Shown in pieces: positions 3,596-12,701 of a stretch of 23,311 nt of DNA (the first letter of the stretch is position 1; each line of letters begins with the position of its first letter). The notes under the pieces were generated by a model. It was given only the letters and a program-made list of their open reading frames with translations. It made no database searches and was not told the DNA's origin. The translations under genes and the position numbers were made by a program. This DNA comes from a virus, in IMG/VR virus record IMGVR_UViG_3300009149_000294, positions 1-23,311 of that record; one strand, given 5' to 3'.

Positions 3596-3633
3596 GGCCC
3601 CGCCGGTTGCGGCATACCACGGCCGGCGGGGCC
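3596..3633 (+). promoter_or_regulatory. GC-rich 11-bp hairpin in the leader of the radical SAM gene
   Basis: GGCCCCGCCGG (3596-3606) pairs perfectly with CCGGCGGGGCC (3623-3633), with a 16-nt loop. It ends just before the TTGGAG ribosome binding site of the gene at 3649. There is no T run, so it is not a classic terminator; an mRNA-stability or translation-control stem is more likely. Confidence 0.5.
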
Positions 3634-3648
3634 TATTGGAGTAAAAAT

Positions 3649-4410
3649 ATGGGAATAATTTATAGACCATCAGGCAGAGCAGCGGAATATGCGCACCTGG
3701 CAATCAATCATTACGTTGGCTGCCGTCACGGCTGCATGTATTGTTATGTTCCTGCAACAACCCGAAACAATGATTTTCATACAAAGCAAGCGCCAAAGAA
3801 AGATGTCCTTTACAAATTGACCAGGGCGGCACCAAATTTTGCGGGGACTGATGAGCGGGTTTTGCTCTGTTTCGCCTGCGACCCATATCAGCCGCTTAAT
3901 GATGAGCTGAATTTGACCCGGGAGGTTATCAAGATTCTCAAAGACAACGACATTCCCTTCCAGGTTTTGACAAAAGGTGGGATGCGGGCAGTTTCTGATT
4001 TCGATTTATACGGGCCAAACGATGCCTTCGCAGCGACTTTAACTTTTCTGGATGAAGCCAAATCGAAACGAGCGGAACCGAACGCGGCCTTGCCCGAAAG
4101 CCGAATCAGGTCCTTGTCGGTTGCGAAACAGAAAGGCATAAGGACCTGGGTCAGTTTGGAGCCGGTGATTGATACAAAGGCGTCGCTGGAGTTAATTCGC
4201 ATAACCCATTCTTTCGTTGACCACTACAAAATCGGCAAACTGAACCACGCAAGCGGCGACCTTACTTTCCAGGCGCTTCGCAGGTTTGGAATTAAAGCGA
4301 TAGAACTTTGCCGTGAATTCGGCGTTGATTACTGGATTAAGGCGGACCTGGCGAAGTACCTCGACGGGATTCATTTTACAAACACAGATACGCGGAAAGT
4401 GAAAAGATAA
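3649..4410 (+). CDS. radical SAM protein, spore photoproduct lyase (SplB/COG1533)-like
   Basis: 253 residues from the ATG at 3649 (TTGGAG upstream); longer in-frame starts would run through the GC hairpin. The canonical CX3CX2C cluster motif is YVGCRHGCMYCY (Cys25/29/32), binding a 4Fe-4S cluster and S-adenosylmethionine. Next come the FACDPYQPLN segment typical of COG1533 proteins, strand motifs VLTKGG and WVSLEPVID, and a C-terminal YWIKADLAKYL. Family members include spore photoproduct lyase, which reverses a thymine lesion by radical chemistry. Phage members are poorly characterised and may modify or repair DNA. It lies in the early region, upstream of two DNA methyltransferases. The substrate is not known. 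Confidence 0.85.
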   Translation: MGIIYRPSGRAAEYAHLAINHYVGCRHGCMYCYVPATTRNNDFHTKQAPKKDVLYKLTRAAPNFAGTDERVLLCFACDPYQPLNDELNLTREVIKILKDNDIPFQVLTKGGMRAVSDFDLYGPNDAFAATLTFLDEAKSKRAEPNAALPESRIRSLSVAKQKGIRTWVSLEPVIDTKASLELIRITHSFVDHYKIGKLNHASGDLTFQALRRFGIKAIELCREFGVDYWIKADLAKYLDGIHFTNTDTRKVKR

Positions 4411-4676: not shown

Positions 4677-4835
4677 ATGGAACCATTGGACGATGAAACT
4701 TTGTGGGGTGAACCTAATAAAACCGCGCAGCAAAGCGAAGGCGCAATGACGCAGGAAGAAATCGAGCAGGTCGAAATCGACCAGCGCACCGCCGAAGCGC
4801 AGTTGGCGACGGCTATGTTTTTGGAGGCCGAATAA
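4677..4835 (+). CDS. very small acidic protein (52 aa)
   Basis: An ORF of 52 residues, MEPLDDETLWGEP to FLEAE, starts directly after the stop of the gene at 4431. It ends with TAATG overlapping the next ATG by one base. It is strongly acidic and predicted helical (about 24-52). The exact fit between two coupled genes supports real coding, though there is no clear ribosome binding site of its own. Function unknown. Confidence 0.6.
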   Translation: MEPLDDETLWGEPNKTAQQSEGAMTQEEIEQVEIDQRTAEAQLATAMFLEAE

Positions 4836-5191
4836 TGAATTGGTTTATTTTGGTAATCGCCTTAGCCGGCTTGGTCCTGAACATCCTGAAAAAACGCGAA
4901 TGTTTTCTGTTGTGGATTATTTCGAATGGCTATTGGATTTATCACAATCACCAAATCGGCGAAACGGTCCAGGCGATTCTTTTTGCCGTTTTTGCCTTCT
5001 TTAGTTTTTGGGGGCTTATGATATGGGCGCCCGAAAAGAAATCACAATTAACCGCGGCAACCGAAACCTTCTGCCATCGGATTCTGCGCACGCAGAAAAT
5101 TTCTATCAGAGAGGGCAATAAAATAAAAATCAAATGGCTTTTTACCGAAGCGAAAAAACTGTTAAGGATTATCGAAGATGAAGAAACCTAA
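4835..5191 (+). CDS. PnuC-like small membrane protein
   Basis: 118 residues with three hydrophobic segments (about 2-18, 23-38 and 47-65). They include LLWIISNGYWIYHNHQIGE and QAILFAVFAFFSFWGLMIW, which resemble the Trp/Tyr-rich core of PnuC-type nicotinamide riboside transporters and the shorter phage membrane proteins related to them. A basic cytoplasmic tail of about 50 residues follows. Full PnuC has about 7-8 segments, so this is at most a half-type or a distant relative. The start overlaps the upstream stop by one base, a good SD (TTGGAGG) precedes it, and its 3' end overlaps the recombinase gene by 14 nt. Confidence 0.55.
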   Translation: MNWFILVIALAGLVLNILKKRECFLLWIISNGYWIYHNHQIGETVQAILFAVFAFFSFWGLMIWAPEKKSQLTAATETFCHRILRTQKISIREGNKIKIKWLFTEAKKLLRIIEDEET

Positions 5192-5813
5192 ACGAATCCG
5201 GTCCCGCGGCGGCTTGTCACCAAATAAATATTTGAGTGACGAGCAAATCAAACAATTGCGAAGTTACCTTGCCAGGAAAGTTAACGAAGCGATCTTGTGC
5301 GGGCGCTGGCCAATCCGGCCATTTATCAATGCTATGATTGTCGATTTACTTTTGAATTCCGGCCTTCGCGCTGCCGAACTTTGCGACCTTCAATTGCGGG
5401 ACCTGCCAGGTTACCACGGCAAATCGATTATCGACGTTCGCGAAGGCAAGGGAAGAATTCAGCGGTCAATTGTCATATCCGACGTTCTAACCGAACGGTT
5501 GAAAAAATATATCAAGCTGCATCGCCACGCGGCGAAGCCGAAAAGTTATTTGTTCACGAACGAACAAAACCGTGGCCGATTAAGTCCGGCGTCCCTGCGG
5601 AGCAAGCTGCGAATCATCGGCTTTTTTGCCAACGTCGGTCAGTTGAACCCGCACCGGTTCCGGCACACCTACGCAACACACCTATACAAAAGCTGCCAGG
5701 ACCTTGTTTTTGTCGGCGACCAGCTGGGACACAAGAACCCAAAAACAACGGCGATTTATGCCAAAATCGCAAGCGATTTGCGGCAGAAATTTGCGAACGG
5801 TTTCGACCTGTAA
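5178..5813 (+). CDS. minimal tyrosine recombinase / phage integrase
   Basis: 211 residues containing the complete tyrosine-recombinase catalytic set: Arg64 (NSGLRAAEL), Lys91 (EGKGRIQR), His159 and Arg162 (HRFRHTYATH), His185 (LGHKNP) and Tyr194 (TTAIYAKI). It cleaves and rejoins DNA at att or dif-like sites via a 3'-phosphotyrosine. Usual XerC/integrase length is about 300. Here the N-terminal core-binding domain is largely absent, with only about 45 residues before the catalytic domain, so DNA recognition may differ or need a partner. It overlaps the membrane-protein gene upstream and is followed by a repeat-rich gap that may hold its target site. Confidence 0.85.
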   Translation: MKKPKRIRSRGGLSPNKYLSDEQIKQLRSYLARKVNEAILCGRWPIRPFINAMIVDLLLNSGLRAAELCDLQLRDLPGYHGKSIIDVREGKGRIQRSIVISDVLTERLKKYIKLHRHAAKPKSYLFTNEQNRGRLSPASLRSKLRIIGFFANVGQLNPHRFRHTYATHLYKSCQDLVFVGDQLGHKNPKTTAIYAKIASDLRQKFANGFDL

Positions 5814-6064: not shown

Positions 6065-6100
6065 TGAACGGCGAAAAAAAGTTACTTTGAGGGTTTTTGA

Positions 6101-7009
6101 GTGTGGATTTTACCAAAGAATTTAGATTGCTTTCACTCTGTTCAGGATATGGGGGGATTGAGCTTGGATTACGAAGAATTATCCCGACTTTGCGAGCGGT
6201 CGCTTATGTGGAGGTCGAAGCTTTCGCTTGTGCGAACCTGGTTAGCAAGATGGAAAAGGGTTTTCTGGATGCAGCACCTATCTGGACGGATATTAAAACC
6301 TTCAATGGACGATGCTTTCGTGGCAAGGTGGACATCATCACTGCCGGTTATCCCTGCCAGCCGTTTAGTAACGCAGGAAAGCGAAAGGGAACAGACGACC
6401 CTCGACACCTTTGGCCGTATATTGAAAGAATCATTGAAGCAGTTAGACCTGTTTGGTGCTTCTTTGAAAATGTCAGCGGACACCTTACCCTTGGATTCCC
6501 TATTGTTTATCGAAGCCTACGAAATATGGGTTACTCAGTTGAGGCAGGACTGTTTACGGCGGCAGAGTGCAACGCATCGCACAAACGAAAACGGTTGTTT
6601 ATATTGGCCCACCAGCACCATAGGAGATGCGAAACAGTCCAAGACTTACAAAAGGGGAAATCCTCAATTACATTCCCTTGTCGAAAATTGGCCGACACCA
6701 AATGTCCCAAATCGGGGCAAAGAAATCGACAAAAGCCACAGGCCGAAAGCGGGCGGGATAGACTTGCAATCAACCGTTGGCCTGCTCGACCAGGACAGCC
6801 CCAATACGAATGGGAAGAGCCAAGGGTTGTGGCCGAGTCCGACAAGTGCCGACACAGAGGGCATAGGTCCTCGCCCGAGCAGAATAGCAACAAACAGAAA
6901 AACAGAATATCTCAGCCGAACAGTGAACACAAAGAAAGGCAAACTGAATCCCGATTGGGTAGAGCAGTTGATGGGACTCCCTGTAGGGTGGACAGATTGC
7001 GATTATTAG
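6101..7009 (+). CDS. overprinted second frame of the methyltransferase locus (LNPxWVExLMGxP protein)
   Basis: 302 codons open from a GTG at 6101, covering almost the whole methyltransferase gene in the +1-shifted frame. The product is not random in character. It has SLKMSADTLPLDS, FIEAYEIWVTQLRQDC, two WPTP/WPSP motifs (WPTPNVPN, WPSPTSADTEG), and ends in LNPDWVEQLMGLPVGWTDC. From memory, this last motif ends many phage and bacterial proteins annotated as DNA methylase-related. GAGGG (6089-6093) serves both this GTG and the methyltransferase GTG at 6103 (GTGTG). It could be an accessory or specificity partner of the methyltransferase. Alternatively the frame is open only because of codon constraint. 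Confidence 0.6.
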   Translation: MWILPKNLDCFHSVQDMGGLSLDYEELSRLCERSLMWRSKLSLVRTWLARWKRVFWMQHLSGRILKPSMDDAFVARWTSSLPVIPASRLVTQESEREQTTLDTFGRILKESLKQLDLFGASLKMSADTLPLDSLLFIEAYEIWVTQLRQDCLRRQSATHRTNENGCLYWPTSTIGDAKQSKTYKRGNPQLHSLVENWPTPNVPNRGKEIDKSHRPKAGGIDLQSTVGLLDQDSPNTNGKSQGLWPSPTSADTEGIGPRPSRIATNRKTEYLSRTVNTKKGKLNPDWVEQLMGLPVGWTDCDY

Positions 7010-7092
7010 GTAACGGAGTGGTGCCGCAACAAGCGGCAAAAGCGTTTCGTATTTTATATGAAAGATTTTTGAACGATGAAAACAATCTATAA
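6103..7092 (+). CDS. dcm: DNA (cytosine-5-)-methyltransferase, Dcm-type
   Basis: 329 residues from GTG 6103; TTG 6097 is too close to GAGGG (6089-6093). Motif I is LLSLCSGYGGIELGL (SAM binding). Motif IV is GYPCQPFS with catalytic Cys85. Motif VI is ENVSG (about 122-126), motif VIII-like is HKRKRLFILA, and motif X is LLGNGVVPQQAAKAF near the C terminus. It transfers methyl to C5 of cytosine in duplex DNA, usually for phage protection from host restriction. The region between VIII and X (about 170-300) is low in hydrophobics and rich in Arg, Gln, Ser and Pro, without a clear target-recognition domain. That is what one expects if this stretch is constrained by the overlapping frame. Its 3' end overlaps the next gene by 17 nt. 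Confidence 0.9.
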   Translation: MDFTKEFRLLSLCSGYGGIELGLRRIIPTLRAVAYVEVEAFACANLVSKMEKGFLDAAPIWTDIKTFNGRCFRGKVDIITAGYPCQPFSNAGKRKGTDDPRHLWPYIERIIEAVRPVWCFFENVSGHLTLGFPIVYRSLRNMGYSVEAGLFTAAECNASHKRKRLFILAHQHHRRCETVQDLQKGKSSITFPCRKLADTKCPKSGQRNRQKPQAESGRDRLAINRWPARPGQPQYEWEEPRVVAESDKCRHRGHRSSPEQNSNKQKNRISQPNSEHKERQTESRLGRAVDGTPCRVDRLRLLGNGVVPQQAAKAFRILYERFLNDENNL

Positions 7093-8918: not shown

Positions 8919-9749
8919 ATGAAGATTGCGAGGGTTTTTGCCAGAAAGACAAAGATGTCACCGAAAGATAGCGATGCTTATTTCGGGTTGCCGAGTCTAT
9001 ATACACCTAAATATGATGAGATTCATATTTCGGTGAGTTTTACCTGGGACCTGCCGAAGGTGGATATTCTCAAAGAGGAATGGTCCAGATATGGCAGGGT
9101 CAAAGTCGGCGGGCCAGCCCTCGAGGACCCGGGCGATGAGTTTGTCGCCGGCAGGTATCTCAAAGAAGAAGTTACGATTACTTCGCGGGGCTGTCCGTAT
9201 AATTCAGAGCGCTGTTCGTTTTGCTTTGTACCGAAACGAGAGGGCAAAATCAGAGAGTTACCGATCGTCCCGGGCAATATCGTTCAGGACAATAATCTTC
9301 TGGCCTGTTCAAAAGCGCACCGTGATAAGGTATTTGCGATGCTTCGAACGCAGAAAAAAATTGATTTTTCCGGTGGTCTGGAAGCGGGTCGAATTACAGA
9401 TTCAATAGTCGAAGAATTGCGCTCGTTGAAAATCAATCAGCTGTGGCTTTCCTATGATCTGCCGGAACGAAAGCCCGACTTAATCAGGGCGGTTGAGAAG
9501 CTCAAACGTTACTTTCCGAGGTACAAAATTCGCTGCTATGTCCTTATTGGTTATTTGGGGGACACGCTTTACAAGGCAGAAGAACGATTACAAGAAGCCT
9601 GGGACATCGGAACGCTGCCTTTTGCGATGAGATATAGAACAGCAGCGGGACAATGGGAAGGGACATATTTATTTACTGAGCGGCAGTGGAACTTGCTGAC
9701 GAGGAAGTGGACAAGGCCGGCGGCGATTAAGGCCGGTATGAAAGGTTAG
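8919..9749 (+). CDS. radical SAM protein with B12-binding-like N-terminus and expanded Cys motif
   Basis: 276 residues. N-terminal strands (IHISVSFTWDLPKVDILKE, then RVKVGGPALEDPG) resemble the B12-binding-like domain seen in some radical SAM proteins. The cluster region is TSRGCPYNSERCSFCFVPKR: Cys92, Cys99 and Cys102, spacing CX6CX2C instead of CX3CX2C. Downstream features are IRELPIVPGN, QDNNLLACSKAH, FSGGLEAGRI and a C-terminal CYVLIGYLGDT. This order is recalled from phage and environmental radical SAM proteins where the cluster reads CPNxCxFC. The reaction is unknown; DNA, nucleotide or protein modification is possible. The gene immediately after (9753) encodes a probable partner. Confidence 0.8.
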   Translation: MKIARVFARKTKMSPKDSDAYFGLPSLYTPKYDEIHISVSFTWDLPKVDILKEEWSRYGRVKVGGPALEDPGDEFVAGRYLKEEVTITSRGCPYNSERCSFCFVPKREGKIRELPIVPGNIVQDNNLLACSKAHRDKVFAMLRTQKKIDFSGGLEAGRITDSIVEELRSLKINQLWLSYDLPERKPDLIRAVEKLKRYFPRYKIRCYVLIGYLGDTLYKAEERLQEAWDIGTLPFAMRYRTAAGQWEGTYLFTERQWNLLTRKWTRPAAIKAGMKG

Positions 9750-10506: not shown

Positions 10507-11328
10507 GTGAATCACGGAAATGTTGACAAGGTGATGGCCGATGCGAAGAAAATCGCACAAGAGTGGAGCGAAGACAGAGCTCCCTTAAAGAAGCTGATGC
10601 GCAAATACCGCTGCTGTTATTCTACGATTGTGCGGGCGATTCGCGCTGAGATTTCAAAAGAACAATGGCAACGAATCAGGTATCGGCATGAAGTAAAAGG
10701 CGGGCGTAAAACACGCTTCAAAAAGGGATGCATCAGCTGGAACAAGGGCATCCATTATAACCCGGGCGGGCGATCGGTAGAGACGCGATTTAAGCCAGGT
10801 CGGATTCGAGGAGCTGCCGCTCAGAAATACAGGGCCGTTGGAACTATTACAATTCGGCATGATCAGTTATTTCGACGGCAAAACAAATCAAAACTCACAC
10901 GTAAAGATGGCACCAGGCGAAAAGGCAAACCTCGACGCTGGATTAAAATCAAGAACACCGGGCCTCCTCAATATTGCTGGATTCCGTATGCACGTTACTT
11001 GTGGCTCAAATATAAAGGTCTGATACCCGTGGACTACTTTGTAGTTCATAAAGACGGCAATCAGATGAATGATAATATCGATAATTTTGTTCTGATGAAC
11101 CACAGCACGGCATTGAAGCTGCAGCGGGCGAGAGACCCGGAGACAATGATTGTTATGGCAAAAACTAAACGGCACAAAAGTAACAGACAGATAAATAATC
11201 ATTTCAGTTTCTTCTGGCAATGTAAAAACTGCAGCGCGGATTTCAGGCAGAAAAGGCGGCCTCAGCGCTGCAAAAAATGCGGCGGCGGGGTGTTCGAGAG
11301 AATTAAACGGATAAAACAAGCGGGATGA
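10507..11328 (+). CDS. HNH endonuclease with HTH N-terminus and zinc-ribbon tail
   Basis: 273 residues from GTG 10507 with AGGGA upstream. N-terminal HTH-like segment (LKKLMRKYRCCYSTIVRAIR). Basic middle with KPGRIRGAAAQKYRAVGTI. HNH core RYLWLKYKGLIP..YFVVHKDGNQMNDNIDNFVLMN (His in VVHKDGN, Asn in the DNIDN segment, about 179-200). A C-terminal CKNC...CKKCGGG zinc ribbon. This layout matches phage HNH proteins found as free-standing homing endonucleases or packaging-associated nucleases. It lies 5' of a DNA methyltransferase, overlapping it by 4 nt, so a restriction-modification-like pair is conceivable but not shown. Confidence 0.8.
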   Translation: MNHGNVDKVMADAKKIAQEWSEDRAPLKKLMRKYRCCYSTIVRAIRAEISKEQWQRIRYRHEVKGGRKTRFKKGCISWNKGIHYNPGGRSVETRFKPGRIRGAAAQKYRAVGTITIRHDQLFRRQNKSKLTRKDGTRRKGKPRRWIKIKNTGPPQYCWIPYARYLWLKYKGLIPVDYFVVHKDGNQMNDNIDNFVLMNHSTALKLQRARDPETMIVMAKTKRHKSNRQINNHFSFFWQCKNCSADFRQKRRPQRCKKCGGGVFERIKRIKQAG

Positions 11329-12701
11329 AAAGTAAGGTAAAAGTTAAAAGTAAAAAGGCAAAAACAGAAATGAAAAAAACGCAGCCAAAGATACGAAAGT
11401 TCAAATTATCGCAGCTAAGGCCAGCGGGTTATAACCCCCGCCTTATCAGTAACGAGGCGTTCGCAGGCTTGTCAGCGTCGATACTAAAGTTCGGATGCGT
11501 TGAGCCGATAGTTGTTAACGTGCGCAGCGCCAAGAACACCATCATCGGGGGACATCAGAGATACCGGGCCCTACTGAAATTGCATCGGGCGAATTACAGT
11601 TGCTTTTGCGTAACGGTGGACCTTAGCAAAAGCGATGAGAAGATCTTAAACCTTACACTAAATAATCTGCATATACAGGGCAGGTTCATAAAAGAATTAG
11701 GTGAATATATCGATACACTCCGGGCAGAATTGCCGAACGATAAGGATTATCTTGCCCTGCGAATCGATGAACTTCACGCCGAGGTTGGTATGACCGGAAA
11801 ACAGGGATTAGTTTTAGATGATGAGATTCCGGAGCCGCCGAAAAAGGCGGTCACAAGGCCCGGGAATTTATGGCTCCTGGGAAACCATCGATTGCTCTGC
11901 GGTGATAGTACGAAGGATGCGGATGTAGCCAGACTTATGAATGGTAAGAAAGCAAGCTTGTTCGCCACGGACCCACCGTATTGTGTTGATTATACTGGGG
12001 ATGATCGACCAAAAACGGGCAGAGATTGGTCTGATACTTATCATGAAATTGACATTCCCGATGCCATGCGGTTTACAAAAGATTTTTATGTAGTAGGATT
12101 GAAATATATCAGGAAGAAAACCGCCCTTTATTTGTGGCATGCCTCAAAACGTATAAATATGATCCAGCGGATTTGTCAAGAGCTTAACATACTTATACAT
12201 CAAACGATTATTTGGGTCAAACCTTGTGCTGTTATTACTTATTCGTTTTATATGTGGCGTCACGAGCCCTGTCTTTTGATGTGGGTCAAAGGAAATAAAC
12301 CGCCATTTAGGCCCAGAGATAAATCCATCGGTACCGTTTGGCCAGTAGGTTATATCAAATCGGGTGACCCGACAACGCCGGAATATTATACCGATGTCTG
12401 GGAACTGGACTGGGCCGGCAAGAAACGCAATCCCGGCATCGAACATCCGACGGTCAAGCCAGTCGAGGTGTTTGCCATACCGATGAGAGTGCATACGAGA
12501 GTGGGGGATATTTGTTATGAGCCATTTTGCGGCTCGGGTTCGCAGATTATAGCAGCTGAAAAACTCGATAGAAGATGCTTCGCAATGGAGCTCGAGCCGG
12601 TTTTCTGCGATGTAGCGGTCAAACGATGGGAGGAATGGACGGGGAAGAAGGCAAAGCTTGCCCAGAGTGCCAAACGGGCCAAACGGGCCAGGCGGGTATA
12701 A
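11325..12701 (+). CDS. ParB-domain / DPPY-type DNA methyltransferase
   Basis: 458 residues. A basic N-terminal tail is followed by a ParB/Srx-like domain (about 24-110, with GLSASILKFG and IIGGHQRYRAL). Next is RPGNLWLLGNHRLLCGDST (about 179-195) and methyltransferase motif IV DPPY (216-219), then HPTVKPVEVF (about 374-383). Motif I PFCGSGSQIIAAEKL comes last (about 400-414), the beta-class order. It methylates adenine N6 or cytosine N4 in DNA using SAM. Fusion of ParB-like and methyltransferase domains is common in phages. It is coupled to the HNH gene by ATGA and ends with an Ala/Lys/Arg-rich tail that may be partly degenerate. Confidence 0.9.
   Translation: MKSKVKVKSKKAKTEMKKTQPKIRKFKLSQLRPAGYNPRLISNEAFAGLSASILKFGCVEPIVVNVRSAKNTIIGGHQRYRALLKLHRANYSCFCVTVDLSKSDEKILNLTLNNLHIQGRFIKELGEYIDTLRAELPNDKDYLALRIDELHAEVGMTGKQGLVLDDEIPEPPKKAVTRPGNLWLLGNHRLLCGDSTKDADVARLMNGKKASLFATDPPYCVDYTGDDRPKTGRDWSDTYHEIDIPDAMRFTKDFYVVGLKYIRKKTALYLWHASKRINMIQRICQELNILIHQTIIWVKPCAVITYSFYMWRHEPCLLMWVKGNKPPFRPRDKSIGTVWPVGYIKSGDPTTPEYYTDVWELDWAGKKRNPGIEHPTVKPVEVFAIPMRVHTRVGDICYEPFCGSGSQIIAAEKLDRRCFAMELEPVFCDVAVKRWEEWTGKKAKLAQSAKRAKRARRV

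Follow-up and report, generated by a model that had tools for sequence, protein, structure and literature searches.

Two conserved overlapping frames at a phage C5-methyltransferase locus and the case for an overprinted two-chain enzyme

The window, by which we mean the whole stretch of DNA that was analysed (23,311 nucleotides), is a 23.3-kb virus record with tailed-phage genes for an integrase, terminase, portal, head protease and major head protein. At positions 6101-7092 two reading frames lie on the same strand and overlap almost completely. Frame 1 (alpha) runs from 6097 or 6103 to 7092 and encodes 331 aa from TTG 6097 or 329 aa from GTG 6103. Frame 2 (beta), in the +1 frame relative to alpha, extends from GTG 6101 to 7009 and encodes 302 aa. 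An earlier interpretation of this DNA from its letters alone (the sequence-only reading) had described two long overlapping frames here, and both ORFs were present, as were the peptides it quoted. The features of the locus are as follows.

6089..6093, + strand: single Shine-Dalgarno-like GAGGG, able to serve both starts (read in the sequence)
6101..6105, + strand: GTGTG double start (beta 6101, alpha 6103); ATGTG in most relatives
6103..7092, + strand: alpha, 329 aa, catalytic chain of a C5-methyltransferase, containing motifs I-VIII and X (PF00145, phrog_363, AF2, Foldseek)
6101..7009, + strand: beta, 302 aa, chain overprinted in the +1 frame, with WPTP modules and motif IX at its C-terminus (phrog_1008, tblastn relatives, constraint tests)
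6130..6171, + strand: alpha motif I, LSLCSGYGGIELGL
6331..6369, + strand: alpha motif IV with catalytic PCQ, DIITAGYPCQPFS
6457..6483, + strand: alpha motif VI, CFFENVSGH
6583..6612, + strand: alpha motif VIII, KRKRLFILAH
6605..6616, + strand: beta module 1, WPTS
6625..6984, + strand: alpha residues 175-294, predicted disordered, at the expected site of the target-recognition domain (AF2, codon-position variation)
6689..6703, + strand: beta module 2, WPTPN
6830..6844, + strand: beta module 3, WPSPT
6941..6997, + strand: beta motif IX, KLNPDWVEQLMGLPVGWTD (HMM 9e-17, hhalign to one-ORF methyltransferases)
6991..7047, + strand: alpha motif X, DRLRLLGNGVVPQQAAKAF (HMM 1e-17, confident AF2 helices); the last part of beta motif IX overlaps it from the other frame

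Alpha matched PF00145 over residues 9-202 (4e-36) and phrog_363 (3.6e-61). It keeps the C5-methyltransferase motifs I, IV (PCQ), VI (ENV), VIII and X, and its predicted structure has the SAM-dependent methyltransferase fold. An HMM search of frame 1 gave no match to motif IX. When alpha was compared by hhalign with one-ORF phage methyltransferases, which hold motifs I-X in one frame, the alignment covered motifs I-VIII only (5.9e-65) and ended at residue 175. The AlphaFold (AF2) model has a catalytic domain with pLDDT above 90 and a motif X of confident helices (86-97); the 120 residues 175-294 have pLDDT of about 38-63 in most blocks, with one of 75, and contain no helix or strand. Foldseek aligned the model with HaeIII and HhaI (~1e-13) over ~170 columns of its 327 residues. 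By these matches and the predicted structure, alpha is a C5 cytosine DNA methyltransferase without a small domain (TRD) or motif IX of its own, and no foldable recognition domain is found in it.

The C-terminal sequence of beta, LNPDWVEQLMGLPVGWTD, can be aligned with motif IX where one-ORF phage methyltransferases hold it in frame. The one-ORF motif IX region in turn aligns with residues 273-307 of M.HhaI, which links beta to that enzyme. The hhalign match between frame 2 and the one-ORF enzymes was confined to motif IX-X, with 4.2e-15 for the last 20 residues of beta and 1.5e-7 for motif IX alone. Residues 78-300 of beta also matched phrog_1008 (1.5e-25), a profile that additionally spans motif X, which at the window locus lies in the alpha frame; this span is a first hint that motif X may sit in different frames among relatives. 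Both phrog_1008 and phrog_363 are annotated 'DNA methyltransferase', and the families are silent on being two frames of one locus. In relatives the number of WPTP modules per beta is mostly 2-3 (range 0-6).

Taken alone, frame 2 gave no match in Pfam, NCBIfam, PADLOC or PDB sequence searches. Its AF2 model was poor (pLDDT 56.7, pTM 0.24), and Foldseek on this model found no fold relative. Small modulators are a frequent product of overprinted phage genes, and this, together with the missing database matches, favors the hypothesis that beta is a separate regulator, inhibitor or anti-restriction protein and not a piece of the enzyme. We consider that hypothesis improbable, since motif IX of one-ORF enzymes has its homologue at the C-terminus of beta, alpha has no motif IX, and in relatives where motifs IX and X are both in the +1 frame beta carries motif X as well. 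The sequence-only reading had suggested an overprinted methyltransferase with a specificity or inhibitor partner; the pair and the specificity role are supported, and the inhibitor role received no support.

The same reading had put the chance of a random frame staying open this long at about 5 in ten million. That figure is too strong once the alpha amino acids are held fixed, as permuting alpha's synonymous codons within the window gene left a mean of 5.6 stops in frame 2, and none in 5 of 20,000 permutations. With alpha recoded by the codon usage of 14 other window genes the mean rose to 9.2 stops and none of 10,000 sequences was stop-free. The +1 frames of nine other window genes contain 8-30 stops. 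Open length is much weaker evidence than the conservation seen among relatives. A tblastn scan of IMG/VR with frame 2 yielded 108 viral relatives, of which 80 were kept; the frame-2 homologue had the same relative frame in 80/80 of these loci, nearly all of them open in both frames. To avoid selecting on frame 2, a second set of relatives was picked by frame 1 alone. Here beta was stop-free from its start to motif IX in 45 of 47 readable loci, so that the frame is not broken in homologues; breakage there was one of the outcomes by which the sequence-only reading would have stood refuted. The two exceptions are L125, with one beta stop, and L147, with motif IX in alpha's frame.

Stop avoidance was found in both directions. 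In 77 non-redundant loci, a set chosen as open, 5.4 beta stops per locus were expected on permuting alpha and 11.8 alpha stops per locus on permuting beta, and 0 were observed in either case. We label loci by the frames of motifs IX and X, with a for alpha's frame and b for +1. In the TRD of 146 (b,a) loci, permutation of the beta codons predicted 825 alpha-frame stops, against 3 observed; the third frame had 1332 stops observed vs 1296 expected.

Codon-position rates gave a second measure of constraint. In the full-overlap clade, to which the window belongs, the ratio of third- to first-position variation in the alpha N-terminus was 1.20, 1.29, 1.41 and 1.56 in four identity bins. Where beta starts later, the ratios at matched identity were 1.62, 2.00, 2.36 and 3.86, with non-overlapping intervals. 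Third-position variation in alpha is thus, on these comparisons, depressed in loci whose beta extends over the N-terminus as well. The (a,a) loci were tried as single-frame controls and dropped, as a nested beta is present in them from about codon 82 on, and the contrast was therefore limited to the unshared N-terminus. In the TRD and motif IX the most variable site is alpha codon position 1, which is the wobble position of beta (TRD: 10 and 3 pairs). The motif I-VIII region is led by alpha and the pattern is reversed in the TRD/motif IX region, to judge from these rates. This beta-wobble pattern and the predicted disorder bear out the earlier impression that the other frame dictates the sequence of alpha's target-recognition region. 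A test of where synonymous changes are placed gave z of 3.1-4.7 for frame 2; control genes and the third frame reached 1.5-3.3, so this test was treated as weak and we relied on stop avoidance and codon-position rates. The loci are mutually related, so the counts are not independent events, and the TRD alignments are loose. As far as sequence comparison can establish it, selection acts on both frames, in a different part of the locus for each, and frame 2 is a genuine gene; the constraint in both frames that the sequence-only reading had made a check on its proposal was found. Very long same-strand overlaps with conservation of both products are uncommon beyond the well-studied viruses, and for most candidates openness is the only evidence. 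The window locus has independent evidence of selection for each frame, and one of its frames carries a motif known in frame in other enzymes.

The two genes begin two bases apart. The single GAGGG that had been proposed to serve both GTGs is at 6089-6093, with a spacing of 7 nt to GTG 6101 and 9 nt to GTG 6103. The beta start has the form xTGTGG in 125 of 148 loci (112 ATG, 11 GTG and 2 TTG), and in these the alpha start is the GTG two bases past it. No alternative alpha start, upstream or up to 30 codons downstream, exists in 22/77 loci. The window differs from most relatives in that its beta starts with GTG, not ATG. A Shine-Dalgarno match of at least 4 bases was present upstream of the same start in 56 of 76 readable relatives and absent at 20/76 starts examined. 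From the frequency of xTGTGG and the loci with no other alpha start, we infer that ATG for beta and GTG for alpha are retained together across great divergence.

The frames of motifs IX and X differ among the relatives, with 146 (b,a), 64 (a,a) and 15 (b,b) loci. L049, L114 and mycobacteriophage Eris are examples of (b,b) loci, in which alpha ends beyond motif VIII and only beta carries the modules, IX and X, something that no mere shadow could produce. The hypothesis that it is a non-coding shadow, with alpha's motifs and codon bias keeping the +1 frame open and similar, we regard as barely credible. It can draw on the naturally stop-poor +1 frame of these methyltransferases, on the only modest excess over controls in the placement of synonymous changes, and on the match of frame-2 residues ~76-180 to the +1 frame of enzymes with motif IX in alpha (L085 3e-15, L087 2e-9). 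It does not explain why stops are avoided even with the alpha protein held fixed, why the ATGTG start is conserved, why the TRD and motif IX have a beta wobble pattern, why N-terminal constraint occurs only in loci where beta starts there, or why frame 2 runs on alone with IX and X after alpha ends. The similarity of residues ~76-180 was dropped as evidence for beta, being partly a shadow of alpha. The refuting outcome named by the sequence-only reading, a frame-2 motif seen only as a shadow of methyltransferase genes, nevertheless fails, given the (b,b) loci L049 and L114.

A tree built from motifs I-VIII places 39 of 87 rows in the full-overlap clade (support 97/92), and the (b,a), (b,b) and (a,a) types are interspersed, so the frames have switched several times. 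Rare IX/X combinations, the third frame included, were seen in L147 (2501-3594), L077, L151 and L211; these may reflect indels from assembly, or else genuine additional frame switches.

A motif order of I-VIII, TRD, IX and X that runs across the frames would also fit one chain made by a programmed +1 frameshift that, past motif VIII, takes ribosomes into the TRD and motif IX of frame 2, and for (b,b) relatives a single shift would be enough. (b,a) loci such as the window, however, would require a second shift at the 4-nt IX/X overlap. Such an enzyme would have no need of an open, constrained frame 2 with a start upstream of motif VIII, yet this is present, and the nested beta of relatives has its own conserved internal ATG. 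We have no slippery-site data, and we hold a frameshifted single chain to be very improbable.

The reading we favor, at a probability of about 0.82, is that the locus encodes one split, two-chain C5 methyltransferase, overprinted and co-initiated, with alpha as catalytic chain and beta supplying target recognition and motif IX. Sequence comparison shows that both frames are coding and conserved, that their starts overlap, that the motifs are partitioned between them, that beta has a homologue of motif IX and that alpha is without a foldable recognition domain; the following steps are inferred. Ribosomes would load at the one Shine-Dalgarno site and begin at either of the two starts two bases apart, so that a single message would yield both chains, the choice of start setting their ratio; no expression data support this co-initiation. 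Alpha would bind SAM and catalyse, and beta would provide target recognition through its WPTP modules as well as motif IX. Assembly and module-based recognition are inferred without binding data. The assembled chains may methylate phage DNA, presumably against host restriction, an activity and a biological role for which there are no methylation data.

Beta of M.EcoHK31I is said to be encoded inside alpha in another frame (so reportedly Lee, Kam and Shaw in 1995), and in this the window would be alike, with beta within alpha's gene in a different frame. M.EcoHK31I is a two-polypeptide C5-methyltransferase whose large subunit has motifs I-VIII and X and whose small subunit has motif IX alone; its predicted TRD was assigned to the large subunit, which remains a prediction (PMC3404938). 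As in that enzyme (YGGCCR), the large chain of the window has I-VIII and X and motif IX is in the other chain. The window differs in that its two chains are of similar length (beta 302 aa, alpha 329 aa), that beta starts 2 nt upstream of alpha, not internally, and that beta has WPTP modules. It also differs in its phage setting, with no restriction enzyme recognised nearby, and in that the recognition region appears to be in beta, not alpha (wobble pattern, predicted alpha disorder). Compared with M.EcoHK31I, the near-complete overlap, the conserved ATGTG double start, the frame-hopping of motifs and the wide occurrence in phages and plasmids are new here. We found no paper on overprinted phage methyltransferases in open-access PubMed Central; an earlier description is not excluded. 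M.AquI (CYCGRG) is naturally split as well, with motifs IX-X and a portion of the variable region in its small subunit (PMC3404938). Its partition resembles that of L049, L114 and mycobacteriophage Eris, where the second chain has IX and X; the window differs in having motif X in alpha and in its almost full overlap. Naturally split methyltransferases, M.EcoHK31I among them, already serve targeted methylation (PMC3439449), and new natural splits are for this reason of practical use.

Betas that contain motif IX, either nested or of full length, are present in phages of Paenibacillus, Lacticaseibacillus, Acinetobacter, Acidovorax and Synechococcus, and plasmids of Leptospira, Citrobacter, Lacticaseibacillus and Shinella carry them too. 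Scanning with the Graduation methyltransferase yielded nothing beyond its self-match. As a rule one frame is annotated, and in the annotated plasmid records of these four genera it is alpha. The beta frame is the GenBank CDS, with the catalytic alpha unannotated, at L156 984-2150 (Acidovorax phage Alfacinha3 gp46) and at L084 1472-2587 (Synechococcus phage Ssp-JY39). Only some records have both frames in RefSeq, e.g. Paenibacillus phage Jacopo (NC_048718), one of the Paenibacillus larvae Fernvirus phages in which the overlapping gp56 and gp57 are both called DNA methyltransferase. Like the window, Fernvirus beta has motif IX in the +1 frame; unlike it, this beta is nested, starting 202 nt inside alpha. 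The Fernvirus genome paper lists cytosine methyltransferases and, in the passages found, leaves the nesting undiscussed (PMC6070908). Gene callers usually retain one frame, and the recognition subunit, or the catalytic one in Alfacinha3 and Ssp-JY39, is therefore missing from the annotation. A prediction of specificity from alpha alone would use a probably disordered stretch.

In the (a,a) one-ORF loci the modules are mainly in b in 38/64 and mainly in a in 1/64. Their +1 module ORF has an internal ATG in RKGxxD|ERHLWP (85% of 62 loci) and ends near motif IX. The Asp of RKGxxD is GAT in 85% of loci, vs 41% at other Asp codons, and within GC-rich genes in 89%, vs 21% at other Asp codons (p = 2.6e-5). 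That a whole family of phage C5-methyltransferases is two-chain and overprinted, with recognition modules always +1, IX and X jumping frames, and dose set through an internal ATG (at alpha RKGxxDE) or ATGTG, is in our judgement an evenly balanced proposition. If true, many 'complete' one-chain methyltransferases lack their real recognition subunit in databases. The family offers natural replicates of IX/X frame moves, through which one can directly test how overprinted genes and split enzymes arise.

Some further observations concern individual genes. Among the one-ORF phage methyltransferases (L161-L240 from IMG/VR, e.g. L163, L173, L209, L215 and L221, and also L155 of Gordonia phage CheeseTouch), LPTP/WPTP modules are mostly +1; L213 has LPTP modules in both frames of one gene, the first in b and later ones in a. 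Within the window, 11325-12701 encodes a ParB-N domain fused to an N6/N4 DNA methylase (PF02195 1.4e-6, PF01555 1.5e-14), a second methyltransferase of the same phage. Two genes are radical-SAM-like, at 3607-4410 (PF04055 4.3e-9) and 8919-9749 (phrog_9298 1.3e-21). The gene at 4835-5191 encodes a 118-aa protein resembling the C-terminal part of NMN transporters, just under the cut-off (PF04973 1e-5), and is directly followed by the tyrosine integrase gene at 5178-5813.
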